Under the pieces are notes generated by a model, which did not search any database, was not told where the DNA came from, and was given only the letters and a program-made list of their open reading frames with translations. A program made the position numbers and the translations under genes. A stretch of DNA of 64,000 nucleotides from Hondaea fermentalgiana (lineage: Eukaryota > Sar > Bigyra > Thraustochytrida > Thraustochytriidae): contig NPFB01000049.1 in NCBI GenBank assembly GCA_014084085.1, forward strand, positions 25,659 through 89,658. The letters are read 5' to 3'. Below are positions 14,082 through 62,967 of this stretch, piece after piece. Position 1 is the first letter of the stretch. Each line of letters begins with the position of its first letter.

Positions 14082-17000
14082 GTTGAGGTTCCAAGCGCTC
14101 CGACCGATGCACGTCTTCACCTGCGCTCGGGCACGAGCCTTTTCGTTGACTTTGCCGCACCTCTCAACGACGGCGGGTCGGAGGTCACCTCCTACGCGGT
14201 CGAATGGGACACTGAGCCTGGGACTCGCGAGGTTCAGATTGTCAAGACCGACGTCTATCTGGGACCCAACGAAGTGCAACAAATCACCACCTCGGCCACC
14301 CATGTCGATGAGGTACAAGTCGTACGCACCACGGCGACTGAAGTGCGAGAGGTCCAGACCATCACCACTTCCGGTGCCCCGACAGTCGACGGTGGCTGGT
14401 TTACCGTCGTCTTTGATGCTACGGCCCTGGGCCTCGGCTTTCATACCTCGGGGTACATTGATCATGATGCCGTGGCCATGGCTGGCGACGATGGCGCTCC
14501 TCTGCATTCCAGTATGCAGGAGATCATCGAGGCCATGCCCAATGTCCAAGGCGCCGTCAACGTCGTGCGAACGGCTGATGGAAATGGTGGCTACACCTGG
14601 ACGATTACCTTTTCTGATATGGATGGTAATCTTCCAGAGCTAGAGATCGGCACGCAGGAGCTCATTGGCAGTGGCGCAGAGGTTACCTTTGGTACCGATA
14701 CCGACGGCAATGAGATTTCCGGCACCTTCACTCTCACCTACGAGGGCGATGAGACCGCCAGTCTCCCGTACGATGCCACAGACGCCGAAGTCAAGGAGGC
14801 CCTCGAGATTCTTCCCTCAATCGACGTGGTCGAGGTCACGCGCTCTGGACCTGACGGAGAGCGGGGATTTGCGTGGTCCATCACCTTTGTCTCGGACGTC
14901 AATGCAGGCGACCTCGCTGCAATGACGCCGGCCTCTGATCTCTCTGGCGATGGTGCCAGCATCGTTGTATGCACAGACGCTGACAGCGTTTCTCCCTGTG
15001 ACGGCTCAAGCGTTGCCGGCAATCATCTCAGCGGCTCGTTCAAGCTAACATATAATGGTGAAGAGACAGGCACGATCGCATACGACGCCGATGCAAGTGA
15101 GATGCAAAGCGTGCTTGACTCGCTCTCGAACCTCGGGAGCGTCTCCGTCTCCTTTGACGAAGCTTCTGTTGATCGCAATCAAGGCAGGACCTGGTTTGTG
15201 ACTTTTCTTGATGACGCTGGAGACCTCTCTGACCTTGTAGCCTCCGACGTGAGCGGTCTCAATGGCGTTGGAAAGAGTGTCACCGTCTCAGAGACTCGTA
15301 AGGGTACTGACAAGCAGATCTTCACCATCACGGCAACTGCTACCGGTACGGCTACCGGCTCCTTTCAGTTGGAGCATGACTCGGTCGTTACCAATGGTAT
15401 TTCCGTCAATCCTGCTGACCACGGTGCCGGCGCAGATTGCGATACGGTCGCCGCGAGCATGGCCACGGAGCTTCAGGCGCTAAGTGTCGTTGGATCGGTC
15501 TCGGTCACTTCGCAGTCGGCTGCTCCTGATGGAAACGGCGCGTGCGTTTGGGACGTCACCTTTGACACCAAGGCAGGGACCGGCTTGGTGCTTAGTGCCA
15601 ATGATGTGGACCTCTCAAACGTTGCTCTTAGTGTGGGCGACTTCCAAACGAGTACATCCGAAGCGCTCGGTGGCCACTTCACTCTGGCATACGAAGGTCA
15701 GGTCACAGGCTACCTGCCCTTTGATGCCACCGCCCTTGCTGTGAAGGAAGCTCTCGAGCGCCTTGACACAATTGGTGAAGTTGATGTCACAAGAAGCGAT
15801 GCGGATGAAAATGGCGGCTACGAGTGGAGTGTCACTTTCCTCTCGGAGCTTCTCGGTCCTCTCGACGACGGTGACCTTCGTCTCTTAGACATGGACACCC
15901 GTGCTCTCACAGGTACCTTTGCGGACGTGGCCAGTAGCGTTACCGAAGATGTCAAGGGCATTGCGCCTCCCTTCAACAGCCAAGGTGCCAACGCACCGAT
16001 CGGTTCTCATGACGTCACAGACATGTCCGCCTTGTACTATGAGATTCCTGACCTTAAGCAGGGCGTGGAGTACTGGGTACGGGTTTCGGCCATCAACGAT
16101 CAAGGAAGCGGTCGCTATGCTATGACCTTGCCCGCCAAGCTCGCACCAGCGAATGTCCCACCGGGTCCTCCAGCTGATGCCACCCTCTCCGTGGTTGACG
16201 GCACCACGCTTCGTGTTTCCATGAGCGAGCCCACCCTTTCTGGTGGAGGTATTCTTGATGCTTTTCGTGTCGAATGGGATACCGTTGAGCTGAATTCAGA
16301 GGTGCAGAGTGTCCAGCTAGATGTACCGGTCCAGCCCGAGATTCAAGTGATTTCGACCTCCGCCAACAACGTCGACGAGGTTCAGCATATTCGCATCCTC
16401 GGTCAAACATCTGGGAACGCTGTCACCGAGGAGCAAGCCATTCGCTGTGATGCCACGGGCGGTACCTTCCGACTGGGTTTCGACGGCACCTTTACAGATC
16501 CAATCCAGTGGAACGCAACCCTCCTCGATCTCGAGAGTGCTCTCACCAGGCTTTCTGCCATCAACGCTGTCACTGTGAGCATCAGTACTGCGACGACGAC
16601 AACACAAAGTGTTCTCTGCAGACCTTACAATGCTGTGCTCAACGAGGAACCTGAAGAAGTGAGCATCCTTTTTGACGACGTCGCCACATACACTGGCAAG
16701 CTCCCTCTCCTCGAGACTGATCTCGAGGGTCTGGAGGGCAACCGGATTATTGACGTCTCCAAAACGACCGAAGGAGAAGCTGATGTCTCGGGTTCCTTTA
16801 TGCTCGCATTTCAAGGGTACACCACTGGCACGATTGATGTCAACGTCGACGCGGCGACCCTTGCGCAAGCCCTGGAGAGTCTCCCTTCGATCGGGACAGG
16901 AAATGTTGCAGTTTCGGGCTCTTCCATGGAATTCGTTGTTACATTCACAAGTGCGAGCCTTGACGGAGACCAGCCAGACATCACGGTTGCGAACGCGGCA

Positions 17001-20000
17001 GGACTTCGCGGCAACGACGCGCGCGTGGTGATCTGCACGGATGGAGCAGCCGATGGCGACTGCTCGGGCATCTCTAGCGTTCAAGGGAACTCTGTTCGCG
17101 GAGATTTCACGCTCGAGTTGCGCGGTCACACCACGCGAGCGATCGAGTACAATGCTGCAGCGTCCGTCATGAAGAGCAGACTCGAAGAGCTTCCTAACAT
17201 CGGCGTCGTCGACGTTGCGCGTACGGGGCCAGATACGCCTGGAGGCACATACGCCTGGACTGTGATGTTTACGAGTAATCCGGGCGCCTTTCCCTTTGCC
17301 AGCTTTGACCGTGCAGATCTCATTCCTGATGGAAGCGGTCTCTTGGCCACGGCCACAGGTGAGACAGTCTCCGTGGGGATGACACCATCACAGGAAGGAT
17401 CGGACCCGCTCGGTGGAAGCTTCCAGCTTGCTTTTACAGACAATTTGGGAGCCACGGTCACGTCAGCGGCTATCCCGGCCACTGCTTCCGCGGACCGTGT
17501 CAAGGCGGAGCTCGAGAGCATGTCTGGGATCGGCACAGTCGAGGTTGACAAGACTGTGGATGCCATTGACGGTGCATTCATTCGCTGGGACATTACCTTT
17601 GCGTCCTGCAGAGGAGATGCCTCTCCCACGTGCAATATCGGCAATCTGAATCCTCTCTCTCCTGATTCTGCCGGGCTCACAGGCGGCTACACAGCCAACC
17701 CGCCCACAATCACTGTTACGCAATCGACGGTAGGTACGGGCGGGTCGGGATCAGCCAACTACAACACGGCCGAGATTTCGGATCTCAGCGCTGGGGCACC
17801 GTACACGTACGATATTACCGGGTTGGATCTGGGCGTGAACTATTATGTACGCGTCTCTGCCAAAACGACATGCGAGGAAGTGTGCCCAGACTGCTGCTCG
17901 TATGGTGTACCGATCGCAACCACCCCAAGGGTGGCGGCGCCCATGCACGGCGCTCCCGGTCAGCCGGCGCCACCCGTACTTCGTGCTTCAACCCAAGACA
18001 GCCTTGTGATTGCATGGTCGCATCCGCCGAGTACAGGCGGATCCCCCGTGACAGGCTACGAGCTCTGGATGGACGAATGGGCCGGCGGAGACTTTGCCAT
18101 GATCTACGATGGCACAGGCCAGGACCACGTGACTGCCTTTGACACAGCCTCCAAGTTTGCTCTTGTTCCCGGGCGCCGCTACCGCGCAAAGTACCGAGCT
18201 CTCAACGCAATCGGGGCTGGTGAGTTCTCCGACGAGGCTATCTTTGTGGCCCGATCTGCCCCTAAAGCGCCAGCTGCGCCAACGCAACCCAAGCGAGACC
18301 CCACCATGACGCACGATGGCACGGCACTTGCAGGAGATGCCATGGCCGGTATTTACTGGACCACTCCGGTTGATAATGGAGGAAGTCGAATCACTGGCTA
18401 TGAAATCTACCGTGATGATGGCAGTGGTGGAAATTTTAACCCGCCTCTCCCTTTCGGCCAGCTTCCAGTGCAGCAACTTCGCGTGACGGACGTCACTGGT
18501 GTTACGGGTAATCTCGTCTTGATCTACCAAGGAGAATCGACGTCCACGATCGATTTCTCCTCTCCTCCATCGGCTGATGATGTGCGCGACGCGCTAGAGC
18601 CTGTTGTTGGTTTGGTTGACGTCACAACTTCGAATCCGAGCGGAAACGAGCACGAGTGGACAATTACCTTTTTTGAGCTTCATGGTGAAATCGAAGCCTT
18701 GACTCCGACTGGTCTTACCATCTCTTCAGGTTCCGTCGCTGTGAGCATCGTACAAGATGGTGCAGGTGACCCCGCCGTGCAGATTGTGCAGCCTTCTTGC
18801 GATGGAGAAACGATTACAGGTGAATTTTCGCTCACGTTCTCGCACGGGGAGCTCTTTTCGGTTTCTTCTGGCGACAGTCTCGTGGCAGATCCAGTCACGA
18901 TCGGTCCTTTTAATTATGACGCCAATGCCGCGACAGTCAAGAGTGGCATCGAGGCAGCTTTGGCTTCGGCTGATGGCGGTCAAGTGACAGTCGAAGTACA
19001 CCGACGCGAGATCGATGCTAGCACAAACCAGTACATGTTCGCCATTGCCTTTACGAGTGGACTCGTTCCTGGCGCGCGTGGCGTTTACGAGACAATTCCT
19101 CTCTTTGCGCCTCTCGCAAATGACTTATTGTGTGATGCTGGATCTGGAAGCAACTCGCCAAGAGTAGACGCCTCGCGTCTCGTCGCTGGCTCGCTTTCCC
19201 ACGTATCGGGTGATCTGAACGAAGGCAGGCCGTACCGTTTCTACATCCGAGCAATCAATGCACAGGGCACGTCTGTGCGTTCGCCAATGTATGCGGTCCT
19301 CACTGCGGCGCTTCCTGATGCATCTGCGGCCCCAATGATTACCGATGTTGAAGCCTCTGCAATTTCCATTGGTTGGACGCGTGCAACCAACATGCGAGGC
19401 TCGCCGGCAACTGGATTCAAGGTGTACCGTTTCGATTCTGTGGCACCGGAGACTGTTGCAGACCCGACACCCGTGAAGAATGAGGTCCAGCGCGTCGTTG
19501 TCGCTGCGGATGCAGAGCAGCCCGAGATTCAGCAAATTTCTATCTCTGCCACTGCAGGCGACGTTCGACTGAGTTTTGCGGGAGAGACAACGAGCAATAT
19601 TGCTTACAACGCAGACGCAGCAACAGTACAAACTGCCTTGAATGGTCTCGCTGCGCTCACCAGTGCGGCTGATGCAGCCTTGGGTGTCACGGTTGCTCGC
19701 TCGGGAGGAGGTTCTTCGTTTGTGTGGACAATCATCTTTGATGCCCTTCACGGCGACGTTGAGACAATTCAGGTGGACGAGACGCCTTTGACGGGAAGCA
19801 CCAGTGTGGAAGAAGTGCAGTCTGGTATCGCCCCTCTTGCGGGAACCTTTACGTTGAGTTTTCGGGGTGCCACGACACAAGAACTGTCCTTTGATGCGTC
19901 ACCCACTGCGATGCGACGCGCGCTTGAGCGTCTGTCAACCATTGGAAAGGTCGACGTTGATCGAACGGCCGTTACGGGCTCGAGACCTGGTTTGCAGTGG

Positions 20001-23000
20001 GACGTCACGTTTCTCACCGAAGCGGGTGATCTTCCACTTCTCGAGGGCACCTCGGGTCGTCTTGTGGGCGTCAGGTATGACTATGTACCTGGGGCAAATG
20101 ACAACAATGCTGCAGCGGTACAATGCTCTGAGGTTCAGGCTGGCACTCCAGCCGTCTTGGTGTATGACGGCCACGAGGACCCTTCTCTGAAATCCCTCAC
20201 AGCAACCGGTCTTCAAGTTGACAACACGTACGCTTTCAAGGTAGCAACGCTGAGTGCCGCCGGCGATGGCGTTCTTTCCCCAGCGACGTCTACCATCATT
20301 GCCCGCGCTGGCGCCAGCCCTGCGGAAACAACCGCAAGTGGTTCGGCCCTGATCTATGGCATTGCAGGTGTTGTTTTTGAGGAGCAGCAAATCACCATCA
20401 CAGCATCAAGTTCTACCTCTGGTTGGTCAGGAGATCTTTCTCTCCGCGTCGGCGGCGCGAGCGCGGACGCTAGCAGCAACATCGACCCAATCAATGACAC
20501 ACCAGACACGATTGCGGCAGCTTTGAGTGTTCTAAACGACGCAAGTGGGGCCCTTGTTGGTACCGTGCATGTCACCAGGACGCTCATCGATGGCGAGAAC
20601 AGTCTGTATGGATGCGTTCTTTCAGTAACGTTCGTTGGCCGCCATGGCGACGTAGACACGGTCGAAGTCGCATCCAACACGCTCGATGCTTCGGGAAACG
20701 CCGTGTCTGTGAGTGTGTCAGAATTTGTGCAGGGAATGGCGAATCAGTTCATTATCGAGCCCAAGAAGCTCTCGGGCAGCCCTGTCAAGGATGTCTCGGC
20801 ACACTCTGGCTTCCAGGGTCAGGATGTGTTCTTCACGGAGCTTTGGACAACGGATGTCAGCGTCGTGGACGGCACGCACGAATGGGCGAGGGATGGCGGC
20901 GTTGCGCAGTATTCGCCTGTTCGATACGAGATCCAGCGCGTTTACACGTCGGTCGATGACACCATCACCGCTGGTAGCTTCGTGTTGGACTTTGACACTA
21001 CCTCTTACAACAAGCAAAGCGGCACTTCAGAGACAACCGGAGCGCTAGCTTATGACGCAAGTGCAAAGGACGTCAAGGACGCTCTCGAGCTGCTCTCAAA
21101 TGTTGCTTCGTGCGATGTGACGCGTAGTGACCTTGGAGATGGCACGTACGAGTGGATGATCACTTTTACCGGAGACTTTGGACCGTTGCCACTGTTGGCG
21201 GAGAATGTCGCGACATCCTTTACCGGAACTAACGCTGCACTGCACAGGGCGCGTGTTCAAACTGGCGTCGCAGAAGTCCAAACAATCACTGTCTCGGCCT
21301 CTGAACGCTTCGTCTCTGAGGAGCAGGTCATCACCTTGACTGGTGCGAGTTCGGGGACATTTACGCTCAACTTTGACAGCGCTCCGGTTCCCGTTACGGT
21401 TGCTTTCGACGCTACAGCTTCTGCTATTCAAACGGCGCTCAATAGTCTCGAAACTATCACGGAGGTCTCAGTATCTGGTGCTGCCCCGCAGTGGGTCGTA
21501 ACCTTTGCCAATCCCGTTGGCGATGTCGGTCCCCTCGTGGTGGATGATGCGAACCTCGATTGCTCTGACTGCGCCGACGTTGAAGAGATTCAAAAGGGGG
21601 TGAGCCCTCTCGACGGTACCTTTGTGCTTGCTTATGAGGGCGAGTACACGGGTAACTTGGACTTTGACGCAAGCGCCGATGCCGTCGCAGCCAGTCTTGA
21701 GGCGCTCTCGACCGTGGCCTCCGTCAGTGTCGAACGCGAAGATCTTGTGTCGGGATTTCGCTGGACTGTCACCTTCTTACGCAATTTGGGTAACTTGCCA
21801 CTGCTGGTTGCGGAGCCGGTTCGGCATGAGATTCAGTACATTGAGCTCCGAGGCGGAGACCCTACTCCGCTCGGAGGCACTTTTACCGTTTCCCTCGCTG
21901 GTTCGACAACGCCTGCTTTGGCCTTTGACTGTACCGCGGAGGAGATGCGTGTAGCGCTTGAGGACATGTCCGCGCTGGCTGGTACCTCTGTCTCGGTGGC
22001 CCGTGAAGGACCCCTGTCTCCTGGCTTTGGTCGCTACAGATGGCTCATCACCTTCCACAACGACCTCGGCAACCTTGAGGACCTTTCAGTTGATCTCGAG
22101 GGCATTACCGGAACCACCCCGGACAAGCTCATTTCCGAGGAGATTGCGGGTTCCGTGGCAGCTCTCAGTGGATCAGACCCAGCCTTGCTTGTCGAGGAAA
22201 AAGAACCTGGCCTGCCTTCGTACACTGGAACGTACACGCCAGAGCATACGGGCAGCTATGCCTTAAGCGTTCGCCAGCTCACACGTGGCGGCCTGGCCGC
22301 GGATTATTTTGACAATCAATGGCTTTCCGGAGTACCCAGCATGTCGCGAGTTGACGCCCACGTTGATTTCAACTGGGGGGACGGCGTCATTACTCCTTAT
22401 GGCCGTGACTACGTGTCGGCTCGCTGGCAAGGCAAGGTCCTCGCGCCAAGCTCCGAGAACTTTACGTTCTATGTGCTTGTCCACGACGGTGCCCGTCTCT
22501 GGATCGATCACGAACTTGTCATTGACGCCTGGGACACTAGCGCACGCAGCGAGGACGAAACCAACGAATTTCGAGCTACGCATGTACCGCTTATTGCTGG
22601 CAACTATCATGACGTGCGTCTTGAATTTAAGGAACTGACGGGCGTCGCTTCGATTCGTCTTCAGTGGTCTTCCTACAGTGTTGCTCGCCAGGTGATTCCT
22701 CGAACGCGCTTGTTTCGTGCCGAACACATTCAAGGATCTCCTTTTGCCGTGTCTGTGGTCCCTGGCGCTGCCGATTATCCGTACTCAACGGCATGGGGCC
22801 CAGGTCTCGAGCCTTCGGGTGTCGCAGCGGGCATCGAAACTACTTTTGAGATTCAGAGCAGGGACAACAGCGGCAATGATCGTCTCACAAATGATGAGAC
22901 TGGTGAAGATCCCTTTGAGGTTACTCTTGTTGGCCCTGAGATTCTCACTGTATCCCCCGAATACGTGGGTAGTGGCAAGTTTTTCGGCCGCTACACGGCC

Positions 23001-26000
23001 ATGATTGCCGGTACTTACATGGTGTCGGTCACTACCAAGAGCGGAACCCACATTTATTGTGGGCTTGGCGCCGCAGACAAGTGCTCTCCCTTTCAGGTCG
23101 TGGTAAGCCCTGGTCCAACGTCTCATGAGACCACGGATGCTGCAGGCGGCGGACTGAGCGCTGCTGTCGCGGGACGTGTTTCGACCTTTACGATCACCAC
23201 CAAGGACACGTACGGAAATCTGCAATCGGAGGGCGGCGAGCTTGCGGACATCAAGGTCAAACTGGTGGGCACGGGTGGCATTGCGGGACGCGAAATCTTT
23301 GCCAATGTTGTCGACAATGCTGACGGAACCTATCATGTCACATACACGCTTCGGGACGCGGGGACCTACGAGGTGCTTGCGACATACAAGGACCAAACCA
23401 TTCTTACCGATGGTACCTTCACCGTGCCCCAGGTTGTTTGTCAACATGCTGAGCTCCATGCGCCGAGCTCGATCGCGTCTGGTTCGGGACTCATGGCGGC
23501 CACCTCTGGGTCCACGGCAAGCTTCCAAGTTTTCGCTCGTGACGCTTTCTCGAACGCGCGCGACGGGACTGGTATTGACATCACAGCTGACGGCGATCTT
23601 GACACCTTTGTGGTCTCTGTCAAGTCCGCAGATGGCCCCGAAGAAGTTGTGTCGTCCTCTGCGGTGATTACACTTCGCGTCGGAGCGGATAGTGGCTCCA
23701 TTACAGGCAGTTTTACGCTGACTTGGGGGGATCGAACCACTCGCGCTCTCCCGCACGACGTCTCTGCCTCGACTCTTCGCGTTGCTCTCGAAACCCTCTG
23801 GGTCGAGTACGATTATTCTTCGGGTGACGGGATTGGCGAGGAAATTGCCGGCACCCGTCGCACGGTGCTCGTGGAGCGCGCAACGACGGGAACCGGAGTC
23901 GGGTTCGAGTGGGCCATCACCTTCACTTCACACCTCGACCAGTGGATTCCATCTATGCTCAGCGCCACAGACACAAATCTTGGTGGAACAGGTGTTGCCG
24001 CATCTCTTTCAACCCTCGCAACTACCGGGACATATCCGATCAGCTACGTGTACTGGCTTGCTGGTGAGGCAGATCTCTTCGTTCGCGGCGCCAAAAGCGG
24101 GCTTAATATTGAGGGAAGCCCCTTTGCTCTCACTGTCTCAGAAGGCGTTGCGGACTACTCGGATTCCTCGTGTTCAGAGACCGTTCTGAACAGTGGCGTG
24201 GCCGGTGAAGTGTTTTCGTTCGATGTACTCGTTCGGGACAGCCCTCGATTCGAGGAGCAAGTTATCTTCGTTGACGCGGAGATCGTTTCCGAGACAAGTG
24301 AGGAGATTTATATCAACTGTGTCGGCACGGCCGGTACTTTTACTTTAAGTTTGTATGGTTACAGCACTGGCCCTATTAACTACAATGACGATGAAGCATC
24401 GATCGAAAGTGCGATCGAAGCATCTTCCGCGATCGGAGATGTCACCGTAACGATTGGCGGTATGCAGACCACGGCATGCGCCGCTGGTACATCGGAAAAT
24501 ATCGTCATTACTTTCGTTTCCCCCACGGGTGATCTTCCGGACGTCGCTCTCGAAGGTTGGGATGCTTCCATGACCATCAACATTGGAGAATCCGTGAAGG
24601 GAGCCACCAATGCACGTGCAGAGGTCCAGGAGTTCTCGTGCGATGCCACAAGTGGCGGAATTACTCTGTCACTTCCGGGATACACCGGAACTTCGTCTTC
24701 CATTGATCTCTCCAGTGCAACTGTGGAGGCTCTGCAGAATGGATTCGATGAGATCTCTAGCGGGGCTGTTTCTGTGAGTATCTCAGACGGGTCCGATGTG
24801 ACATTGACAACTTTATGCCAAGCCACGCCTCCGCTGGTTTGGATCACTTTCCAAGAAACTGTGCAAGATGTTAATGGGCTGGTCTCATACACAGAGGATA
24901 CCGCTGTAAGCGGTGGCTCCATCACGATCCGAGAGCTTATCAAGGGCGTCTCGCCGGCTTCGGGTTCATTCACGTTGTCCTTTGACGGCGAAACGACTAC
25001 GAGTCTGGACGTCTTTGCATCGGAATCTGATGTCAAGGCAGCACTTGAAGCTCTTTCCACGATCGACACGGTTTCTGTCGCGCGAGATGACTATGGATAT
25101 GATGACGTCACAGGAAACCCTCTCGGGTCGATGTGGACGGTTCTCTTCGATATTCCGGGTCCTCACGTAGGTGCATCCCAGCCGCTTCTGGTCGGAGACG
25201 CGAGCGGTCTCACGACGTCAGATAATGGTCAGCTTGCCCCTCGTGTTTATGTGCAGCGAACTGTTTCGGGTCTTGCTGGAAACAAGCGTGCTCTCTTTGA
25301 TGATTCCGGGGACATTGAGGTGTTGCTTACTCGAAAGGCGACACCTTACGCGCACAGTATCGCCTCGCAGTCGAGTGAGGTTCAGGTTCTCACGTGCGAT
25401 GCCTCGAGCGGATCTTTCATCCTTCGTCTTCTCGGTACGAATACAGCCGAAATCCCGGCTACTAGCACTCAAACACAGTTGCAAACGATTCTCGATAATG
25501 CGTTTGCCTCAGGACCGCTGAGTCTTTCGATTACGGCTACCTTTGATGTATCATGCACAAATGTGTGTAGCTCTAATTGCGAGGTGGAACTGGCAATGTC
25601 ACGCTTTCCTGGAGGCGTCATGGAAACTCTACCCTATGAGGACGATCTTCTCGCGGGAGGCAGTGCTTCCGTCTCTGTGGTGGAGCGCGTCAGAGGAACC
25701 GTTTCCACATCTGCGCTTGGAGACGCGCTCTATCGCGTTTCGTACGTCCCAGCTCTTAAGGGCGAATACGAGATCTCCGTGCAGGTCGCAGGCGGCGACG
25801 TCAAGACGAACCTTGATAGTGGCGTGCTTGTTTATCCTGCTCGATCGCATCCCCACACATCTACGCACGATGCGCGGACGATTGCAACCGAGGGTGTGAC
25901 AGAAACCTTTACGATTCAGGCATTCGATCAGTTTGGTAATGAACTCGATGGTCCTCTAGTCTATCCAGATGTCCTCACGGCTCAGCTGGTTGGCCGCGCG

Positions 26001-29000
26001 CACAAGCTTTCCGGTCACAGCACAACTTCTGCGATTGTCATTCCCGCTACAGTATCGAGCAATGAGCCTAATACCGATGGCGTGTACACTGTCACATATG
26101 AGCCAACGCTGGCGGGCACATATTCCTTGGAGCTAAAGCAGCGAACGCAAGGTGGTCTACTTGCAACATACTTTCTTCGTGAGGATCTCACGGAACCTGT
26201 GACTGCGGACCTCATTTCTTCGGCTGAAATTGCTCTGCACCAGGAGGCAGCCTTGCACTGTCCTGGCCTTCTTCTCGATAGCTGCACATCAACGCGCGTT
26301 GACGCACAAGTCAATTTCGATTGGACCACGCAGGCACCGATGGAAGGTTTTGCAGCTGACTTTTTCTCTGTGCGCTGGGAAGGATATTTGCTTTGCGAAG
26401 AGTCCGGCGCTTATGAGTTCGTGATTGAGTCCGATGCGCGCGCACGGGTCTATGCTGACGACACGATTGTCATCGACAAATGGTCCGACGCCTCCGGCGC
26501 AAGTCGTGTGTCGGCAGTTGTGGATTCTCTCGAGGGTACTACAACCCTTCCTATTCGCGTCGAATACGCTCAGAGTGACGGTGCCTCTCACGTGCGGCTG
26601 CTCTGGCGCACGCCTGCCATGCGGGCTGCGGGCGAAGCTGCCGTGCCCGTACCTACCGAGAATTTCCTCTATGAAAGGCACCTGCGCGACTCCCCGGCGG
26701 AGGTCTTCATCTATCCTGGAGATATCGACGCGTTGACCACAACCGCGACGGGAGACGGCTTGATCACCGGTGTGTCGAATGTTCGGAGTAGCTTCGTTGT
26801 TTTCCCTCGCGATTCGACAAACAACCTTCGGTTTCACGATGCTTCAGATACTTCTCCCTTTGAAGTCACCATTGTTGGCGTTGACGGTTGGGCACTTGAG
26901 GGCCGTGTCGACGAGGTCACAAGTGGGTCGCCCATCGCTCTTTCCCCAGTCATCGTTGCGGATGACTGGGTTGAGCTCTGCAGTGCGTGTGGAACAATGA
27001 ACGCTGGCGACTCTGTTCTGCAGACATCGTCATCTTTGGCTCTCGCGCGTGGTGACAACTTTGTCATCGGGGGTGAGCGCTATACTGTGGCCTTGACTGG
27101 TACACTTGACGCATCAGCAGTGCCCGCGACCTCGCCTCGGCGAGGACTTGGAGTCACAGGGGCTGCAGTGTATCGTGTTGGCCCCGACACGGGCTCGTAC
27201 GTCGTCGAATACGACCCGGTTATTCGCGGCACGTACGAGATCAGCGTTGAGCTTTCTGCCGTCGCTGAAGTACAGACAATCACGTCATCAGCAACCTCAA
27301 CGATTGGGGGTGACTTCCGGCTCGAATACGATGGCAGCAAGACTGGCTGGCTGAGCCATGACGTGTCTTCTGCAGACCTCGAGACTGCAATTCAGGACAG
27401 TTTTGCAGCACTTGGTACTGTCAGTGTCAGCCGTACGGGCCCCGGGTCATTTGGTGAGTATTCCTGGGCGGTCACCTTTGCGATCGACGATGGCAATGTC
27501 GCCCCTTTCGTGCCTGAATCCGAGCTCACAGGAGGCGCAGCGGCTCTTGTGGTAGAGGAGACTGTACCTGGAACAAGCAAGTCTCACATCGCTGGATCGC
27601 CCTTTCGTGCGGAAGTTGTCCCTGCTGCCGCGGATTCTGGCATGAGTCTCGGCTTTGGCAAAGGTCTCATGCTCGGAGAAGCGGGTGTGTCGTCAACATT
27701 TTACGTTCAGGTCAAGGACGCCGCGGGTAACAACCGTCTCGAGTCTCAGGCGCAGAGCCTGCTGACTGCGACGGCGCGGCTTCCGAACGCCGCGCGTGGT
27801 GAGAACGAAAAGATTCTCCACGCAAACATGGAGTATATCCGTGATGGCTTGTATCAGTTCACCTTTCTGCCGACTATTGCAGGTTCGTACAACGTGGCTG
27901 TTCTCATGGGCATTGTTCTCGAGGAACAACGCGTCAGCATTTCCTTCAGTGATGAGACTGACCGAAGTGGCTCGTTCAAGCTGTCTTTCGACGGGGAGCG
28001 TGTAACCTCTGCTCTCGCATGGGATACGAGCGCCGCTGATCTCGCGCGGGCGTTACGCACTTCTCTTGTGTCCTCACATTTGGCCTCGACCGGACTGCTT
28101 ACTACACAGCACCTTGGCGGTATCCAGGTTACGCGCACCGCGACCTCGACAGGATTTGATTTTGATATCACCTTTGCAAGTTTTGCCGGAGATATTGAGC
28201 CTTTATCCGTTGTGGAGTCATCTCTTGCGTCAACAAGCGGATCGGCATCAATCTTAGTGTCTGAAGAGATCAAGGGAGAAGCCGCACACATCAAGACGGC
28301 GCGAGCACCACTTGTCCGTGAGGTCCAATCGGTTTCGATTGCGGGAAGTGACGACCTTACCGGCAATTTTGAGCTCATTTTCAATGGAGAATCCACGGGC
28401 GCGCTTGACATTGACAGCGTTGATGCTTCAACTCTCTCGACTGCCTTGAACGCACTTCATACCGTTCAGCGCGTCGAGGTGGCTGAGACATTGAGTGGAC
28501 CGAACGGCTATGCTTGGGAGATTACCTTTATTGCGGAAGATGATACAGGCGCTGCAGTGAGTGCGCTGGCCTACGGCAAGCTCCCCGAGTTGAGTTATAC
28601 TCACACGCTGACCTCGAACGGGGTAGATGATGTGACAATCACGATTGCAACAGACACATCGGGCTTTGCTCCATTCGACGAGCTCGTCGTGTCGCCCACG
28701 ACTCTGAGCGCAGAGCACTCGACACCTGTTGACTCTGCTCCATCTGATCTTTGCCCGGTCTTTGCGGAGGAGTGTCCTTCTGGTCTCGACACAGGCCTCT
28801 TTGAGCGTCTTGCAACTTTCCAGATCGAGTCTCGCGATCGATACAGCAACCGTATTTTCACTGGTCCTGCAGCAGAGGTTCAAAAGGTGAATGTCTATGC
28901 CAGCAGTGGTCTCTCGGGAACCTTTAAGCTCTCTTTCCGTGGCGAACAAACATCTGCTCTTTCTGCAACGCAAGTCGACGCAAGCTTGCTGGAAGGTGCT

Positions 29001-50000: not shown

Positions 50001-53000
50001 GAGAGTCTCACGATTGATTCGACGAATCTTGGTGGAGATTTTACTCTGCAGTTCGACACCTCGAACGAGGCAGACTGTGAGCTTTGCAATGAGCACGTTG
50101 TCGCCACTACAGGCGTCATCGACCCGACAAGCCCGACAGATCTTGAAGACAAACTTTCTGCTCTGGCAAATATCGGAAGCGGTCAGGTCTCAGTAACACG
50201 GACCGATCAAGCCGATGGCGAAGGATACATCTTTACGGTAACGTTCTCGGGAGCAAATGTGCGTGGCAACGTGCCAGTTTTGACCGTGGGGACCGACAGT
50301 CTCACGGGCGATGGCCCAACGATTGCGGTCACCTCTGTGGACGGTCACTACTCTGGCTTTAAGCTTGAGTACGGTACATATGGAACGCCCCGTGAAACTC
50401 GTTGCATTCCCTGGGATGCCGACGCGGAGAGTGCCGACAAGCTTTCTGTCCAGTATGCGATCCAGCAACTGCTTGACTCGGGCGGCACCGATAATCTCGC
50501 TGTAAATGTGGCTCGAAACACGCACACTACTTCTGTGGCCGACTACGCCGTGACTTTCACCTCGCCATCAAGCCCTGAAGACCTCTCCCTCTCCTCGACT
50601 TCATGCGGTTCTACCTTTACTTGCGGTGGCTCTGCATGCAGCCCTGCAATCCCTGTGACGGTTGAATCGACGAATCTTGGCGGTACCTTCAAGCTCACTG
50701 CAGATACGACTGATTGCACATTGTGCACTGTAAAGACCAGCGAAACGACCGATCCTATCGACGTAACTGTGTCCGGCGACCTGGAGGCGAAGTTGAATGC
50801 ATTGTCAAATATTGTCGTGACGGTTACGGAGACTCCGCACGTCGGCGAGGAAGGCGAGGGTATTACATGGCGCATGGTCTTCAGTGATTCAAGCATGTCT
50901 GGCAATCTGCCTGCGGCTATGCTCACCGTTACAAGTAATGCGCTGACTGGTGATGCCGTTGCCCTTCCATTGAACCCCACCACGGAGGTTGAAGGAAATG
51001 AGATCGACCAACAGGGTACTTACACTATCCAATACGATGATACCTCGGCGTCGGTTGTGTTGATTGGGTCCGCGGAAGACTCGAGCAATATCCAAATTAA
51101 TGCTCCAGATGAGACTGCAGGTGATGGAACATCGATCAAGGAGAAGCTTGAGCTTATGGACAGCATGGTCGCTCCGATCGCAGTCATGAAAACGCTTCTG
51201 AACGACGGCGTCGGAGGTGTTCAGTACGATATCACCTTTATCGGCAACTCGGGCGATATGCCGACATTCTCTTGTGTTGGCGTTGGTCCATCTCTGGCTG
51301 TTGACGACCCCACGTATGGTACTTCCACTGGAACCAACATTCGCTACAGTGTTACAAAGACTTCCTTTGGCAACTTTATTGGTGGAACCTTTGATGTGAC
51401 TTGGGATGGTGGCAGTAACTCTGTGACTGTTGACTGGGACGAGACGCCAGAGAACCTCAAGTCAAAGCTCGAATCCCAGTATTCTGGCATGGGTACGCTT
51501 GGAGTCACACGGACTCAATATCGGCCTTCTCCGGATGATGACGACAGCTGGACTGGTGGTTACGTATGGACAATCGAGTACCAGACGCTAGCATCCGACG
51601 TGCAGCAGCTGGAAATTCATAGCGACTCAAGCTTGACGCATACAAATGTAGGAGCTTCCGTCAGCGCGCAACATACAGAAGAGAGGCCAGGCAACGAAGT
51701 CGGTGGCTTCTTTAAGCTCTCGCTTACGCACGGAGGGTCAACAGAAGAGACCGGATTTATCTCGGCAAACGCCGCCGAGGGGGACGTCGCGACTGCATTG
51801 AATGGGCTCAGCAATGTTGGCGCAAGTCAAGTCTCTGTGACTCGAAGCGCAACCGGCCCAGCTGGCGGATCGTCTTACACGATTACTTTCGAGGGAAGCG
51901 ATGTTGGAGGTGACGTCGCCGAGCTCACCGTGCCAGATACGTGCCAGAGCGTGCAGATGCTCTCTCTAGCCGCGGATGGCCCAGTGCAGAGCGGGACATA
52001 CAAAGTCACGTACAATGGCGACTCTACGAGTTGCTTGAGCTGGACTCTCTCACAATCGGACTTTCAGTCTGCGCTGCAAAGTACTTTTGGTGCCGACATT
52101 CCGTCTCTTTGGGTCTCGCGTTCTGGTGATGCGACAAGCTCGACGTCCTCTTACGGGTACACGTATACTGTGAACTTTGTTGATCCTGAATTTCCCACAT
52201 ACGACTTTGGCCTTGACTTCACGTCATGTGCTTCATTTGTCTGTGACACGACCGGAAATGTGTGCAATGAGCAGCTCTCGTGGTCACCGGTTGGCTCGTG
52301 CGATGAATTGACTGGAACAGGTGCTTCAATTGACGTTAGCACCCAAGTGAGCGGAAATGAGCTTGATGGTTCGTTTATCATCGAGTACCAAGGCGAGGAC
52401 ACAGCCCCGTTGTCGCACGCAATTTCCGCCAGTGACTTGAAAACTGCTTTGGAGCGCCATACATACATTGACGAGGTCGAAGTGTCGCGCACACAAGACG
52501 CGGCAATGGCTCAGACGCAAAGCTATGTTTGGTCAATCACCTTTGTAAATGGTGCTCAGCATGATGGCACGGACCATGGAAATGACAACTGGGACTCTGG
52601 TTTCTCGACGGCTTGGGGCCAGAATGTCGGTGACATTCCGCTCCTTGGTTGTAATGCTGGAGGACTTCAGGCCAAGACGGTGGCCCAATCGGTTTCTTGC
52701 GTTCCTGCCGAGTTTTTAGCGGGTAGTTTGCCGCTCTCTGGAAGCTTCACGGTCACACTCGATTCTACGAACTCGGACTTTATGTACGTTAAGGCCTCGC
52801 ATACGTCCGGTGCGATTGCGCACAATGCACCCTCTTCAGCTGCCAATGCAGCACTCACGTCGCGAGCCGGAGAGAGCATCGAAGAAATACTTGAGGCGAT
52901 GGCGAATATCGGAGATGTCGTCGTAATTCGGGATGATGTCGACTTGCACCACGCCGGTCCCGGACAGGCTGGTGCTTATCGCTGGTCAATCACCTTTCTC

Positions 53001-56000
53001 CAGGATGTATGCACCCCCGGAGACGCTGTGTGTTTGAGCGCGGGAGATATTCCGGACCTCGTTCCAAATGATGGGTCTTTGATCGGGACCAATGCTGCCG
53101 TTACCGTCAATGAAGTTCTCAAGGGCAACATTATGCGCGGCACCTTTGTGATGCAGCTTGGCAGCATCGATTCGCTACCACTGTCGTGGGACGCAAGCGC
53201 GACCGAGGTCAAGGCCGCTCTCGAGGCACTTCCTGAAGTCACTAGTGTGGACGTCACTTCGGCGCGAGTCAGCAAATATGGAGCGCGATACTGGTCCGTT
53301 CGCTTCACCGAAAATCCCGGAGAGACACCTCCAGGTGCTGGTGACAGACCTGATATCACCCTTGATACAACGTTTATGATCGAAACAGACACCGGGTCGA
53401 ACACAATGGTCTTTTCTGTCGACGAAGACCAGGCCGGATCGACAAGTCTTTCGGGCGATTTCACGCTCGAGCTCCCTGACACTTCGGACATTCTCCGCAC
53501 GATTAACTTCGATGCTGATCCTGTCGAGGTAGAGCGAAAGCTTCGTGAGATCGATCCTCTCATGGACGTGCGGGTCACACGGGAAGTTTACCCGTCTCCC
53601 GGTGCAGGCGGTTGGGGCGCCGTCGCCACCTCAGATGGCGAAGTGGGCGGTTACCTCTGGCGCATTTACTTCCTTCGAAACCCTGGCGTTTTTGAGGGAG
53701 AGACGTGGCCACCTGGATCGGGCGATGTTTCCACACTGGCGTGGACAAGCTCGGGTCTTGGCGGGACCGGCGCCGCCGTGGCGGCTGACCAGACACAAGC
53801 TGGAAGCACCCCGCTTTCGGGATACTTTCGAATCTCCTACGATGGACAAGAGACGGACGCGCTTTCCTATGACATTAGCGCGACGGATATCAAGACGCAA
53901 CTCGAACTCATTGACAGCATCGGTGCAGTCAGCACTCATCGCTCGCTCGCGATGATGGAACCATTGCCAGGAACCGTCACTGTGGAGAAGGGCATCGCAT
54001 ACATGGACGCGACGGCTGACCTGTGGTCACATATCTCTCGTGGGGACATTGTACGTATTGGTGGTGCTGATGGTCTCGGCCTTAACGGCATTAATGACAT
54101 TGGCGTCACAGGAGACGAACTCATCACGCAGGGCACGGGATCGATGACCGTAGGATCCGCTACTGTGACCACGAGCGCGAACCTGCGCCCGTACATTGCC
54201 GAGCTCGACTACGTCCGCATCGATAATGGTGTGTATCAGGTGCTCAGCACAGGCGTCGAGATCCAATCTGTGGCCATCGGCAATTCGCCGACAGCTGGCG
54301 GATACACGCTTCAATATCTGGACGAGACGACCACGTGCTTGAGCTTTGATGCTACCGCGGCAGATGTTGAGGCCGCCATTGAATTTCTGGACGGCATTGA
54401 TGACGTTATTGTCACTCGCGAGTACATCACTGGCGATGGTTACTTGTACTCCGTCTTCTTTGTTGGCGACAATTTCGACGGCGACGTTGATGATCTGACA
54501 GCCGCTCTCGGAGATCCCGGCTGTGCAGCGCTCGATAACTCTGGCACCGTCACACCAACAGAAGTCCAAGCTGGCACTGCCGCGAATACGCTGACGCTTG
54601 ATCGGGTTTTTGCAGGCGAGACAAACGCAGACGCATACATTTACGCTGTCCCTCCGACGTTTTCCATTCTCAACGAAGGCGTCGAGATTCAAGAGCTTTC
54701 TGTGACAACGGCTTCCGGCACTGGAACGCTGACGGGTGGCCAATTCAAGATTTACGATGCTAGCCACACGGGTGGCACTTCTTGCCTCTCTTACCAGGCC
54801 TCTGAAAGCGAGGTACAGGATGCAATTGAAAGCCTTCACTCCACATCGAGTGGTGATGTCCGCGTGACCCGACGCCTTGCAAGTGCGTCAGAGCCTAGCG
54901 CAGGCTATGTGTACTCCATTTACTTTGAAGGGAGCACATACGCAGGAGACCGAGAGCAGCTTCAGCTCACAGAGACAGGGTGCACAGCCTTGACGCCAGA
55001 CAGTCTTCTTCAAGAATCTACCATTGTTGAGGGTGATACCACCTTGGCGGGCCCGCTCCGTAAAGAAGTTCAGCGCATCACGCTCACAGACCCGCTTCGT
55101 ACGCAATCTTTTACATTGCAGCTTGCAGATATCTCTGCGCCAGAGACCTTCGACTTCACCTACAACGGCGCTGCGTACGGAACCTGTCTCAGTACAGATA
55201 CCAGCGAAATTGATATGCAGACGGCAATTGAGGCTAGGACCGGGGGGGGGACAGTGACAAGCGTGACGCGATCCACAACATCGTCAACTGTAACGTACAC
55301 GGTTGTCTTTGCTAGCGCGAGTGGTCTTTACCCTCTTCAGATCATCGAGGGCAGCTGCACCTGGACAAATATGGTTGATGTCCGAACAAGCCCTGGCAAT
55401 CTCGGATCGGGTATGACTGTCACCTTTGATACAACGTCTTGCAGCATGTGCACAGTCAAGGGTAGCTACACGAGTGGCGCAATCGATCCAACCCTGGACC
55501 ATGGGCCGAGCTCACTGGTGGAGCAGCTCTATGCACTTCCAAACATTGGCGCCTATCAAGTAGAAGTCTCGCGCACGGACGCATCTGCAAGCGACGTAAC
55601 TGAGGAAGGTTCAACCTGGGATATCACCTTTGTGGGCGATGCAGTGATGGGCGATGTTCCTCAGCTAATCGCGAATCAGGGTTCACTCGTTGGCGACAAC
55701 CTTGTTCTCAACTACGAGACACTTACGGAAGGCACGGAGAATCGTGTGTACCTCGGCGCGGTAACACGGGTGGACGGGGAGGTCCTGAGTGGCGATGCAA
55801 ACGTTCCTGCAACGTATTCCGGCTGGTCTCGATCTGGACTCACGGTATACAAGGTTTCTGGGCACCGCTGGACAGTAAACTTTGGCACAAACCTCGGCGA
55901 TCTTGATGATTTGACGAGCGACGTGAGCAACCTTTATGGCTCTGATGCTGATGTGCTCAGTTTCGAAGCCATCAAGGGCGTTCTTCCCGACGCATACACT

Positions 56001-59000
56001 GTCACTGGACTCGATACGGGTCTCCCATACGCCTTCCGTGTGGCTCTTCGGAATAGTCTTGGCCTTGGGGCCTTTTCGACAGAGAACCCTGTCGAATACC
56101 CTCGTGGGGTCCCGGCGCCTCCTGTTCCTTTGGCGGTAGACATTGCTCTTCACCAAGACGAGATTCAGCGGGTAACTCTTGCAGCTTCGCACATTGATGA
56201 AATTCAGACCATCACAACGGGCTGCACCGATTTGCGTGAGGTGCAAACGATCCAGACGACTAGCTCGAGCAGCATCTCAACTGGAACAATTGTACTTTCA
56301 TTCACAGGAGAAGTGAATGGCGTAAGTCACACATTTACCACAGCACAGGAAAAGCAGGTCGTACGTCTCTATCAGAGCTCCGGCGATGGTGGGGCTGCAA
56401 CAGTGGGCGGTTTCCGTCTCGAGTACAATTCAGCTACAACGGCAACTTGTTTGAACCATGATGCTACTGAAGCTGAAGTCGAGTCAGCACTGGAGAGCCT
56501 CGCCGGTATCACTGACGTGAAGGTGGTTCGAACCTGGGTTGCGGCAGATGCAGGTTACTCCTTCACAGTCGTCTTTGTTGACCCTGTATCCCCAAGTTAC
56601 GACATCACGGTTGCCAATGGACCGGGCAGTGGTTCGGCGTGCAAGGCGTGGGTGCCACTGACAAACACGTATGCAAGTGCTGTGAGCGTCTTAGATGCAG
56701 CTGGCGAGGACTTGTCATTTGATATGACAGCTGCAGAGCTCCAAGCCGAGCTCGAAAAGTTGCCCAATGTCTTTGGCGTCCATACGCAACGTTCAATTGC
56801 TGACGAATTTGGCGGCTTTCTTTGGACTGTTGCTTTCGAAGGCAATGGTGGAAATCTTGTAGAGATGTCATGCGCCGCTGGCGGGGGCTTCGATGGTGAT
56901 GCCTGTACTGTGCAGACGATCTCGAACGGCAACGAGATCGGCGGATTCTACACGCTCACTTTCGGTTCCGCCACAACCTCAAATTTGCAATACGATGCAT
57001 CTGCAAATGATGTGAAGCTGGCAATTGAGGCTCTGAATGGAGGCAACACCCATAGTGTTGATGTCACACGAAGCACGGTGGATGCGGCGACAAATGCATA
57101 TGTATGGTCGGTCACTTTTACCTCTGACATTGGAGATCTCGGGGCTATGACATCTGTCAGCTCTCTGACAGGATCTGGCGCAGTGGTCACCATTGACGAG
57201 TTACAAAAGGGTAACTGGCTGTCTGGCGAGTTCACCTTGAGCTACCAGCATGCGACAACGTCTGCTATTGCGTATGATGCGAGCGCTGCGGACATCCAGA
57301 CTGCCTTGGAGGCCTTGAGCACGGTCAAGTCGGTCGATGTTTCAGAGACGACGACAGATTCGCAGCGCGGCCGATCGTGGCTCGTGACCTTTACGAGTCC
57401 AAGCAACGGCGGCGACCTCGACGCTCTAACAGGGTCTTCGACGCTCCTCACAGGGGTCGGTAAAACCGTCTTGGTGGAGGAGGTACAAAAGGGCTCGGAA
57501 GCGACTGGCTCCCAGGCCTCGATCACCTTTGATGCCTCAACGGACGATGGCGGGGAGTCCGTCTCGGGCTACCGTGTCGAGGTTGACACGGTCGGTACTT
57601 TTGACTCAGGTAATGGCCAGTGGTTCATGCTCGAAGACTCCCAGATGCTCTATGGAACACAAGAAGTGCTCGTGTCAGCGTCACCTCGAGACGAAGTGCA
57701 AGAAGTTCGCATCTACAAGCCCTCTGTTGTGCAGACAATCAGCGTTGCTGCTGACACCCAAATCACTGCGGGTGAGTACGTTCTTTCATACAATAGTAGA
57801 ACTACAGCGTGTATCGCCTGGGATGCTGATACTACGACGATGGCGAATGCGATCCAAGACGCGGTTTTGGCCTACGATTCCAGCTTTACGACGCCGTCGG
57901 TGTCGGTCACGCGAACTCCGACTGCAACCGGGCACGACTACGAGGTGACATTTGCCGAAACTTCGGACATCTTTCAGCTGCAGGTGGACTCTGTGGGCGT
58001 GACCGCTTGCAGCGAAGACTTTGCATGCTCTGGCGCCTGTGGTAGTGGATCGCTCGTCTCCGTCACGCCGGAACCTGTGACTGGCTCGCTGGTCTTGAGC
58101 TGGGATACGAGTAGCGACTGTGAACTGTGCTTCTTCCAGGGCGTTGCAGATACGACCGGATCGATTGACGTATCTGACACCAGCGCTTTAGCAACGGAGC
58201 TCGAGCAGTTGACCAACATTCGTGCTGGCGGAGTCACAGTGAACGTTGTTCAACACTCTGGCGCGATCGGTCATGGTATGACGTATGAGGTTACATTTTC
58301 TGGAGGAGCCGTTCAAGGAAACGTGCCGGAGCTTACGATTGACTCGTCATCCATTGCCGACGCGACGGTGGAGATTGCGACGACTCAGCAAGGCGAAGAG
58401 CTCAGCGGAAGCTTTTCTCTCATTTATGGGGGTGACGAAACCGAGGAGCTCGCCTTTGACGCAACGGCGGACGAGGTGCGCGACGCTTTGGAAGCGCTTC
58501 CGGGTCTCGAGACGGTCTCGGTGAGCCGATCCACAGCTATGGAGGCTTTGCCAGGATTGGTGACAACCGTGCAAGGCACCGCGACAATCACAACCTCGTC
58601 GGACATGGGTGTGTCTCGGGGCGAGGTGATTCGTATCAAGGATGAGATCTTCTCTGTCGCCCGCACGGGGACCTTGGACGCGTCAATGGTACCTCTGAGC
58701 ACGGAGGGCGACTACACGTTGGCGGCACTGTACGCAGGTCTCAGTGAGAGCGGAATCCAGGCGTATCGGCAGACTGCAGGATATGTGTACACGGTGACAA
58801 TTGAGCTCGCGGCGAGTGGGGCGAGCCCGGGTCCAATTACCGCTGCGCGTCATGCGCTCGCACCGAACTCTGCTGAGGTACGTATTCGCGGCGGCCAAGC
58901 ATTCACGTTCGATACGGACGAGGGTAAATACTTTGGCTGCGACAAGTGCTTCTTTATGCCAAACCTGCAGGCAGGCACAACTTACCATGTGCGACTGCAG

Positions 59001-62000
59001 GCTCGCAACTCCATGGGCCTCTCGAGTTATAGCTCCACCATGACAGTGGTCCCGATGGAACTGCCCTCGACCCCTCAAAATGTTTACTTGAGCACCGTGT
59101 CAAGCACGGCTCTCTTGGTCGAGTTTGAACCGGGCGTCAGCGACGGCGGCGATGAGATTGTGGGATACGAGGTGCAATACGATACCTCGTCAGACTTTAG
59201 CACGGCTGAGATTGTGACAGTTGGACAAAGCGCCATTCAGGGCTCTCCGCCGTATCACGCTTTTGTGACGGACTTGAGTGTTGCGACCGAGTACTTTGTT
59301 CGGGTGGCTGCGTTGAACAGCGTGCCTCGGCAGATTGTGGATCCGGAACTCAATGCGCCCAATTACGGGTACAATACGAACTGGCAGACCTCGACTCCCG
59401 AGTCGATTCTCACGGCCGACCAGCCCCCTCTCGCGCCCTTTGACGTGGACGTTTCGCTGGTTTCAGGCAGTGTCATCCGCGTCATTACTACATCACCGGA
59501 CCGCGATGGTGGTGTCGAGCTCACAAAGCTCCGCATCGAGTGGGACACAAGTAGCACGTTTCAGTCGCTCGAGGGCAACCTTCCTCTCTGCTCGACGGAG
59601 CAAACCATTGCGGGCAACGACAACTTGCGTGTGTTGACACTCGTCCCTAAACGCTGGGTCTTTGACATCGGTGCGACCACCATCATTCATGCGTTGACGG
59701 GACTCGTGTGCGATCCCCTCGAAGAGGGCACCTCGTACTATGTGCGAGTCGCTGCTTACAATGGTGTCGGCGAATCCGGCTACGGCGAGTACTACACAAC
59801 AGCTGTCCCCGTGGCACCAAAACAAGCACCTGCCGCGCCAACGAGCCTTGAGGCTACGGTTGTTGAGGAACAGGACACGCCCATCACGAGCGTTCATGTC
59901 GAATGGGAGGCTCCGGCCGACGAGGGCGGTAGCCCGGTTACAAGCTACCGTATCGAATGGTACACAATGGAGCCGATTTATGAGGTGCAAACGTTGACTA
60001 TCGTGAACTCGATTGCTGGGGAGACAGATGGAACATTTTCCTTGCTCTTCAACGGAGCAGCTACAGCAGCAATCCAGCATGACGTGAGCGCAGCAGATAT
60101 GCGTCTTGCGCTCATGAATGTGAACTCGTGGGGCTCGATTGGTCACATCGAGGTGTCTCGAAGTGCGATCACGGACAAGGGCTACCGCTGGGACATTACA
60201 TTTGCTGATGAGTCAATGAACCCAGGAAATCAGCCCCCGCTTCTCATTGACGCACAGAATCTTAACGCCAACAGCGGAGCCTTGAGCTACGCTATTACCG
60301 AGAATACGATTGGATCGCGAAGTGCTGGCAACAAGGAGGTCCAGAAGATCGAGACGAGCGCCAGCGCTGGAGCTACTGCGATTCAGGGCTACTTTCGACT
60401 TTCCCTCGACGGAGCGGCGTGGTCGCCTCTCATTGCGCATGACGCCAGTGCTGCGGATCTTGAAGATGCTCTGGAATCTTTGGTGTCCGTGGGTCGCGTC
60501 ACGTGTTCGCGATCAAGCGTGGGTGCAGCTGGGGCGTACACTTGGCACGTTACTTTTGACACGCTTGGATCGCAGACGAGCTGGGATATTTCCGAGCTGC
60601 AGGTGGATGCGAGTTCGCTTGGCACCGATGATGATGACCTTTATAGCGCGTCTGCCACGGTTTCGGATGGCGACAATGCTGTGAACAACATGAACGCGTC
60701 GCCTCCGTCGAACTCGGACTCTACCATTGCTTGCCCAACGTGTGTCATCGGCGAGACGCCATCCTCATTTGCCTATGCTGTCATTTCCTCTGATGCGGCA
60801 GTGCACGAATACGACATTGAAGGTTTGGTCACTGGCGTAGAATACAAGATTCGAGTCGTCGCGGCAAACGAGCGTGGCTACGGTACAATGTCATCTACAG
60901 TGAGCCAGACACCACCACTCCAGGTCCCGAGCGCGCCAACGGACGTCGCTCTCGCGGTCAAGGACGGCGATTCGTCCGCCCTGGAGATTTCCTTCAATCC
61001 GCCAACGAGCGACGGTGGCGACGAGGTGGTCAAGTATGCCGTGCAGTTTGACACGGAAGCAGGATTCAATTCTCCGGCCAGTGCCGGCTTCGCGGGTACA
61101 ATGCAGCTTCGCTGCCCTAACTTTCCAGTGCTGGAGGTGATCACTGTGGAGACGGTACCAAATACGAACGGGGAGGAGATCCAGTCGGGCTTTTTCGAGC
61201 TTGAACTTGGCTATGGAGGCATGACATCGTCGGTCACAAACCCTGCTGCCGTGAGCTTTGAGGCGGAAGCAATGGCTGATGAGGAGGATGGAAACTCAGG
61301 CCGCGTATACTGTGTTGACACATCGCTTTCAATTTGTAACATCAATGGTGCGACCAGTCGCTACGACCAAGGTTCGATGCAGTCACACATTGAAGCGATG
61401 GCATCATCGCTTGGACTTACCGGCGGCGTTTCTGTCACGCGGACAACCAAGGCCAGCAACGCAGGTTACGTTTGGACCATCACGTTCCTCGATACGGTCA
61501 ACGGCATCACGCTGACATCTCCCACGGCAGCCATTACGACGAACGGGGCGAACGGCGGAGCGACTGTCTCGATCAATACGATGACGTCCGGGGCAACGTA
61601 TTCGGCATGCACTGGAACTCACACCATCGAGGGCTTGACGCAAGGCAGGACGTACTTTGCGCGTGTATTTGCGTACAACTCGGTGGGATACAGTGTCGGA
61701 GCTGCGGCGTCAGCAGGAACGAAACCGATGAAGGTGCCCGCTCCGCCGACGGATGTGAGGTTGAGCGTGCTGAGTGGAACATCGCTACGTGTGGTGTTTT
61801 CTCCCGATGATGATGGCGGTGACACGATCACCAAGTACCTCATTGAGTACGACACGGAATCGACCTTTGACACGGTCAACAAACAGCAAAAGGAGCATCT
61901 CTATCTGGAAGGAGGCGCGCCGTTCTCGGTGTCACTGACGCAGCTGACGATGGGTCAGCTGTACTATGTGCGAGTCGCTGCGTACAACTCGCAGGGTTAC

Positions 62001-62810: not shown

Positions 62811-62967
62811 ATGCAAGTTTTGTATGACAGAACACAGCATAAATAAGATCATAAATGATTTTTACAATGAATAAGCAAGTATGCAACCTTGAGAGTGCAT
62901 GACCAAGTTGGTTTCTTTTGGTGGGTTGGGGTGTAATGAATGGAAAACTTTCATCCTCTATTCATGT

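Follow-up and report, generated by a model that had tools for sequence, protein, structure and literature searches.

The question raised by this locus of Hondaea fermentalgiana is whether the FN3 domains of one giant protein are opened at a common loop to hold modules of another kind (EVQ), or whether FN3 pieces and EVQ modules only follow one another along the chain. In the present study, we analysed a window of 64,000 nucleotides from contig NPFB01000049.1, part of an assembly of 36.0 Mb in 238 contigs. ORF analysis showed that a single uninterrupted frame on the plus strand (14007..62810) encodes a protein of 16,267 aa, 1.70 MDa and pI 4.2; all domains described below lie on the same strand. 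Its N-terminus (14007..14081, plus) appears to be signal-peptide-like. The hydrophobicity scan placed there the most hydrophobic 19-mer of the protein (2.04), while the next separate hydrophobic stretch, at aa 4620 (1.72), lies inside a filamin repeat.

Split and intact FN3 domains

Half-domain profiles made from this protein's own domains detected 37 first halves of FN3 and as many second halves, alternating strictly, and none in 20 shuffled copies of the protein. Sixteen domains are intact, and the other 21 are split by 1 to 20 EVQ modules; the first-pass annotation had given this same count, with intact domains interspersed among the split ones. A profile built from the intact domains only still recovered 19 of the 21 split first halves and 18 of the 21 second halves at E≤0.05; both halves of domains 5 and 23 and the second half of domain 24 were weak or missed. 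In addition, PF00041 (FN3) exceeded its cut-off in all four stretches scanned. Among the halves recovered by the intact-only profile, the breaks lie between profile columns 38 and 69 (94 in all), with strand C (..YKVEWDT) ahead of them and strand E (YVITDL) behind. The earlier claim that the break is nearly always in the same loop holds for this C-E region.

From the N-terminus, the profiles place FN3-1 at 14091..16145, with five EVQ modules and four short EVQ strand repeats between its halves (also covered by a predicted structure), FN3-2 at 16161..17939 with four EVQ modules, the intact FN3-3 at 17955..18251, and FN3-4 and FN3-5 at 18309..20291, each split by two. After a filamin block, one EVQ module splits FN3-6 (30363..30986) and FN3-8 (31437..32012; profiles and predicted structure), two split each of FN3-10 and FN3-11 (32370..34451), one splits FN3-14 (35544..36212) and three split FN3-17 (36972..38390). 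FN3-19, 20 and 21 (38745..41384) hold one each, those of FN3-19 and 20 being themselves cut by R modules, and FN3-23 to 26 (41721..47699) are split by 3, 5, 2 and 3 EVQ matches. The longest inserts reach about 2,500 aa; FN3-29 (48399..56093) carries about 20 EVQ modules and a run of short EVQ strand repeats. FN3-33 (two EVQ modules) and FN3-34 (one) are the split domains of 59829..61718, and FN3-35 to 37 form an intact C-terminal tail (61737..62768).

Two sites are exceptions to the common break. FN3-30 is opened twice, by an A-B loop insert of four EVQ modules and strand repeats (56160..57494) and, in the remainder of the domain (57498..59051), by three EVQ modules at C-E; the A-B loop insertion announced at 56.15 kb is therefore real and spans 56.16-57.49 kb. 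The other exception had been described as an F-G loop insertion near 34.75 kb. An EVQ module is indeed inserted there, between strand F of FN3-12 and FN3-13 (34752..35126), and its position can be given as after strand F, which covers the FG loop, the last strand or the linker.

The fold of these domains is shared with titin, fibronectin and the LAR/PTP receptors, and titin and receptor FN3 domains were among the top matches of spine domains both in sequence and in structure. Those proteins are plain tandem FN3 domains, whereas 21 of 37 in the Hondaea giant are opened by other modules; the statement that it is not beads on a string is borne out in that it departs from the unnested succession of titin-like giants. 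The insulin/IGF-1 receptor offers one FN3 domain with a large insert, which sits in the C-C' loop and is largely disordered and processed. This domain (FnIII-2) appeared in our comparison as 4zxb_E, where 95 residues were aligned across a chain range of 216 residues. The receptor is a single case, while the Hondaea giant has many cases and folded modules. FN3 domains with an insert, FN3 giants and phage accessory modules are thus already known; systematic nesting at three levels and its conservation were found nowhere in the literature searched. No paper on this protein or its nesting was met among titles and abstract beginnings, a search with subscription papers mostly outside its scope, and the main text of PMC12221091 does not contain the words 'fibronectin', 'PA14' or 'filamin'.

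The inserted modules and the filamin block

The EVQ profile gave 86 matches in the giant and 5 chance matches in 20 shuffled copies. Sixty-five matches fall within FN3 domains, and the other 21 comprise 16 from the filamin block, four in the A-B loop of FN3-30 and one after strand F of FN3-12; at least three modules are counted twice in these figures because an R module interrupts them. The 79 modules longer than 60 aa are diverged, with a median identity of 30% and a best value of 56% over 52 columns, as calculated from the 2,242 pairs that share at least 50 aligned columns. Short EVQ strand motifs numbered 53 against 3 in the shuffles, their runs being mostly spaced by 13-14 residues, and the strand repeats in FN3-1 are predicted to be beta strands. 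At 48912-49406, such repeats open the largest insert without full modules (four by pattern, more by eye), and comparable runs stand at other insert starts.

The relatives of EVQ were found in phages. A PHROGs search led to tail sheath and major tail families, and against solved structures the EVQ profile matched Bxb1 gp23 (E 4.2e-37) and the Bxb1 capsid (5.5e-7), and more weakly the tail tube (0.0021) and, in phage Patience, a minor capsid protein (0.0097). The phage-like EVQ pair was present in 402 of 50,697 phage records, of which 372 belong to Mycobacterium phages; among the 25 matches listed of these 402, 22 are minor tail, two major tail and one hypothetical proteins. In bacterial and archaeal genomes, 87 stretches fitted a pattern and none was confirmed by tblastn, so the prokaryotic side of EVQ rests on phages. 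Both the sequence and, in predicted models, the fold match the phage tail/capsid accessory module of the Bxb1 gp23 type. EVQ is therefore predicted to have the gp23 fold and, being already known in phages, is not a new module. In phages the module sits on virion proteins (the Bxb1 tail-tip cage gp23, tail tube and capsid; PHROG 10909 and 2839), whereas in the Hondaea giant it is nested within eukaryotic FN3 and filamin domains. It merits attention, since it has these phage relatives, yet no Pfam model in the whole protein (weak POTRA and HMA matches fall on part of it) and no NCBIfam match in aa 1-4800 and two homologs.

From 20.3 to 30.3 kb the spine is made of filamin repeats, interrupted by EVQ and PA14, a block that was absent from the first-pass annotation. 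By Pfam and our own profile, it spans 20304..30326 and comprises about nine full or partial repeat matches, several of the partial ones being weak (2 to 12 bits or less), together with 16 EVQ matches and three PA14 domains. In aa 1-4800, both Filamin (PF00630, E 9e-50) and PA14 (PF07691, E 4e-45) were above the Pfam cut-off. The partial filamin matches end or start near columns 34, 58-76, 88 and 100 of 113, with EVQ between them. PA14 follows filamin column 100-101 in three of three cases, with the last filamin strand (..SPF..) visible by eye behind it: PA14-1 (22287..22679) and PA14-3 (29880..30263), both detected by Pfam and the own profile, start at column 100, and PA14-2 (26151..26612), detected by the own profile, at column 101. 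By Pfam the giant thus shares Filamin/ABP280 repeats and PA14 with known proteins, and it differs from them in this insertion of PA14 into filamin. Much the same order of filamin, PA14 and EVQ was seen in diatom P0003 and P0006, and part of it in P0002.

The third module, R, has about 52 aa and 12 copies in the giant, against 2 chance matches in 20 shuffled copies. Nine copies are found within seven EVQ regions, close to EVQ column 20 or 58; one sits in a filamin repeat and two come after a truncated EVQ. The R profile placed two copies in one EVQ (39894..40328), and the others start at 26994, 29091, 38991, 42330, 42543, 44643, 46881, 53976, 54141 and 58560. Excision of R raised the best EVQ score in all seven regions and each time beat the mean of 30 random excisions, although the best random excision was slightly higher in six of the seven. 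No convincing relative of R was found among solved structures, the best E being 0.021. As judged from these profile matches, the nesting is of three levels, namely FN3 or filamin, then EVQ, then R. RGD occurs in five of the 12 R modules (26994-27137, 38991-39155, 39894-40052, 42330-42479 and 53976-54065), and stands immediately after a sixth (29091-29237); the protein has eight RGD in total.

Conservation and origin of the pattern

Eighty-seven homologous proteins were retrieved, 11 of them species-named and belonging to ten species, all stramenopiles: Aphanomyces euteiches (2), A. astaci, Nothophytophthora sp., Phytophthora megakarya, Thalassiosira profunda, Thalassiosira sp., Aureococcus anophagefferens, Phaeothamnion confervicola, Tribonema minus and Hondaea (a different, Kelch-named protein). 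This points to an apparently uncharacterised giant protein common to stramenopiles. In 13 homologs mapped by sequence alone, split or intact status agreed at 151 of 159 domains, compared with 36-56% when the register was shifted by 1-3. Over the 48 of 87 homologs that could be placed, it agreed at 394 of 411 orthologous domains, while the register-shift controls gave 165/403, 185/408, 170/401 and 151/391 (39-45%); the module count was identical at 323 of the 411. The 39 homologs omitted had fewer than four domains or an order not above 20 shuffles, and the counts do not represent independent events, because many homologs are fragments, possibly from related sources. Three short homologs outside the count (P0015, P0018, P0019) have the same start, FN3-1 with five modules and FN3-2 with four. 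P0001, a homolog of 7,591 aa, has 47 EVQ matches, 15 R modules and only one FN3 half.

Of the 17 disagreements, seven concern domain 22, five domain 4, two domain 6, and one each domains 12, 14 and 29; domain 4 has no insert in five of six homologs, and domain 22 has one in seven of 14. In 12 of 13 homologs the EVQ order was collinear with that of the giant above all 30 shuffles, P0062 being within the shuffled range. In an FN3 tree built without the inserts, the ortholog groups cluster (66 changes; minimum 35, shuffled mean 167), and a tree of 196 rows gave 30 split/intact changes; the trees could neither date nor count insertions. Read from these comparisons, the insertion pattern is old, largely fixed and not ongoing.

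How the pattern arose can be explained in more than one way. One founding FN3-with-EVQ unit may have been duplicated many times, in which case the break would be shared through common descent instead of a loop rule; we consider this origin a serious possibility, though we would sooner bet against it. On the FN3 tree the split domains show some clustering, with 9 changes against 12.3 after shuffling and a value as low in 20 of 500 shuffles, on a tree of 84 columns with 27 of 34 inner branches open, which cannot settle this question. Against such a founder, the starred branches force at least three changes, single orthologous domains gained or lost inserts, and the filamin hosts are opened at other loops.

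It is improbable that modules are still being inserted, or were inserted recently, at a preferred loop in the manner of the insertion rule proposed by the first-pass annotation. Such a rule would account for the same loop being used in 21 of 37 domains and for the few domains that differ between lineages (4 and 22), and that part of the proposal stands. Recent insertion was rejected on the conserved split or intact status (394 of 411 positions), and the divergence of the modules within the giant and the EVQ order shared with 12 of 13 homologs also speak against it; furthermore, a rule of this kind has to be broader than FN3, since filamin and R are included.

Proposed architecture and possible role

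We suggest that the protein is a secreted giant scaffold of stramenopiles, with a conserved FN3/filamin spine opened in tolerant loops, EVQ and PA14 protruding from it and R nested in some EVQ modules, and we give this reading a probability of roughly 0.7. The profiles and homologs demonstrate the domain order, the nesting and its conservation at the sequence level. In the beta-sandwich spine, 37 FN3 domains and about nine filamin repeats would be strung in single file, and most of these domains would keep their fold despite an opening in a loop that tolerates it (C-C'-E in FN3, several places in filamin). EVQ modules of the phage tail/capsid accessory type, or PA14, would protrude at the openings, and some EVQ modules would in turn be opened by the small third module. 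In the FN3 fold the C-C' loop and the C-terminus are at the same pole; therefore, each insert would emerge at a spine joint. Most insertions would predate the split of the sampled lineages, mainly the module number having changed since then. Domain nesting is usually seen as occasional; here it is the building principle of a 1.7-MDa protein, kept across distant lineages, and the 37 FN3 domains provide a natural set for studying loop tolerance.

The N-glycosylation sequons bear on export. N followed by S/T at +2 occurs 8 times in the giant, against 81-112 at 11 other offsets and 99 predicted by composition, an avoidance of about twelve-fold over 14007-62810. Among 19 homologs the deficit is strong in four (P0004, 4 vs about 56; P0006, 5 vs about 53; P0012, 11 vs about 70; P0013, 17 vs about 66) and less marked in most others; P0067 shows none (33 vs about 35), and Aureococcus P0011 shows the reverse (61 vs about 28). 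From such scarcity we suspect that the protein passes through the ER and is densely packed; we read it as probable selection against N-glycans on closely packed surfaces, and export of the giant is likely. The scaffold would then leave through the ER and assemble into a dense extracellular polymer or coat where N-glycans would obstruct, with a mechanical or adhesive role, and the near absence of sequons is a testable clue to this assembly. Against this reading, the models for STT3, OST48, ribophorin I and DAD1 had no match in the 36-Mb assembly, in which SecY/Sec61 was found. The eukaryote-only models matched no control either, the controls being without eukaryotes, and the cause of the missing oligosaccharyltransferase matches may lie in the search or in the assembly.

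A bolder version is a comb-like or dendritic polypeptide of three levels (FN3/filamin, EVQ, R). A phage-tail-type surface module already present in an early stramenopile would have been turned into the side branches of an extracellular giant that is poor in sequons and assembles by itself; this giant, conserved from thraustochytrids to oomycetes and diatoms, might belong to the flagellar hairs. We regard this version as unlikely in its full form. Nearly all named homolog species have flagellate stages, and Aureococcus is non-motile. The tripartite flagellar hairs (mastigonemes) mark the stramenopiles, to which all ten named homolog species belong, and a tubular polymer could well be built from a secreted protein with few sequons and phage-tail-like modules. 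That the giant is a mastigoneme component is nevertheless speculation, to which we give little credence: three stretches (14,400 of 16,267 aa) matched no solved mastigoneme chain at the set limits, the EVQ profile reached a weak E of 0.72 against a tubular mastigoneme chain, and Aureococcus has a homolog. Also against this role, PMC11412368 states that mastigonemes were lost in some clades and names diatoms.

The scaffold with an opened spine also demands that the FN3 halves pair. We built AF2 models of two split units (FN3-1 and FN3-8) on shallow alignments (14 and 9 sequences; pTM 0.47 and 0.64), and in each the two model ends jointly superpose on individual FN3 domains of known structure. 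The prediction is thus that the halves pair into one domain, as the first reading of the sequence had expected. The seven-strand sandwich formed by both halves was found in these predicted models of two of the 21 split domains; the whole-model Foldseek TM-scores were low for both, because the models contain many domains, and the domain-level matches come from VIA-align. A 20-module insert must return its two ends together, which we counted against the scaffold reading, as we did the shallow alignments behind the models, the weak partial filamin matches, the second hydrophobic stretch inside a filamin repeat, and the two homologs (P0067 and P0011) that do not avoid sequons. That the halves are instead independent small domains or linkers, unpaired among EVQ modules, is very improbable and was rejected on the two AF2 models and the strict alternation of 37 with 37 halves, for all that some inserts run to the lengths given above and that domains 5, 23 and 24 are weak by the intact-only profile.

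Two other EVQ giants exist in the same genome, a frame of 12,342 aa (C14:53504 on, L017-L021) with 17 EVQ matches and one of 7,999 aa (C25:28550 on, L024-L027) with nine. The half-domain profiles found no FN3 halves in either; TIG was found in 2,340 aa scanned of the former, and bacterial Ig/cadherin-like domains in 6,666 aa scanned of the latter. They share EVQ and a giant single frame with the FN3 giant, and differ from it in lacking FN3 halves and sequon avoidance (64 and 42 sequons). Around the FN3 giant gene, the upstream neighbours (11001-13000, plus strand) presumably resemble glutathione-transferase-like and OTU-like proteins, and the downstream neighbour (62811-64000, minus strand) is taken to resemble an RRM protein, both by eye from the six-frame translation.
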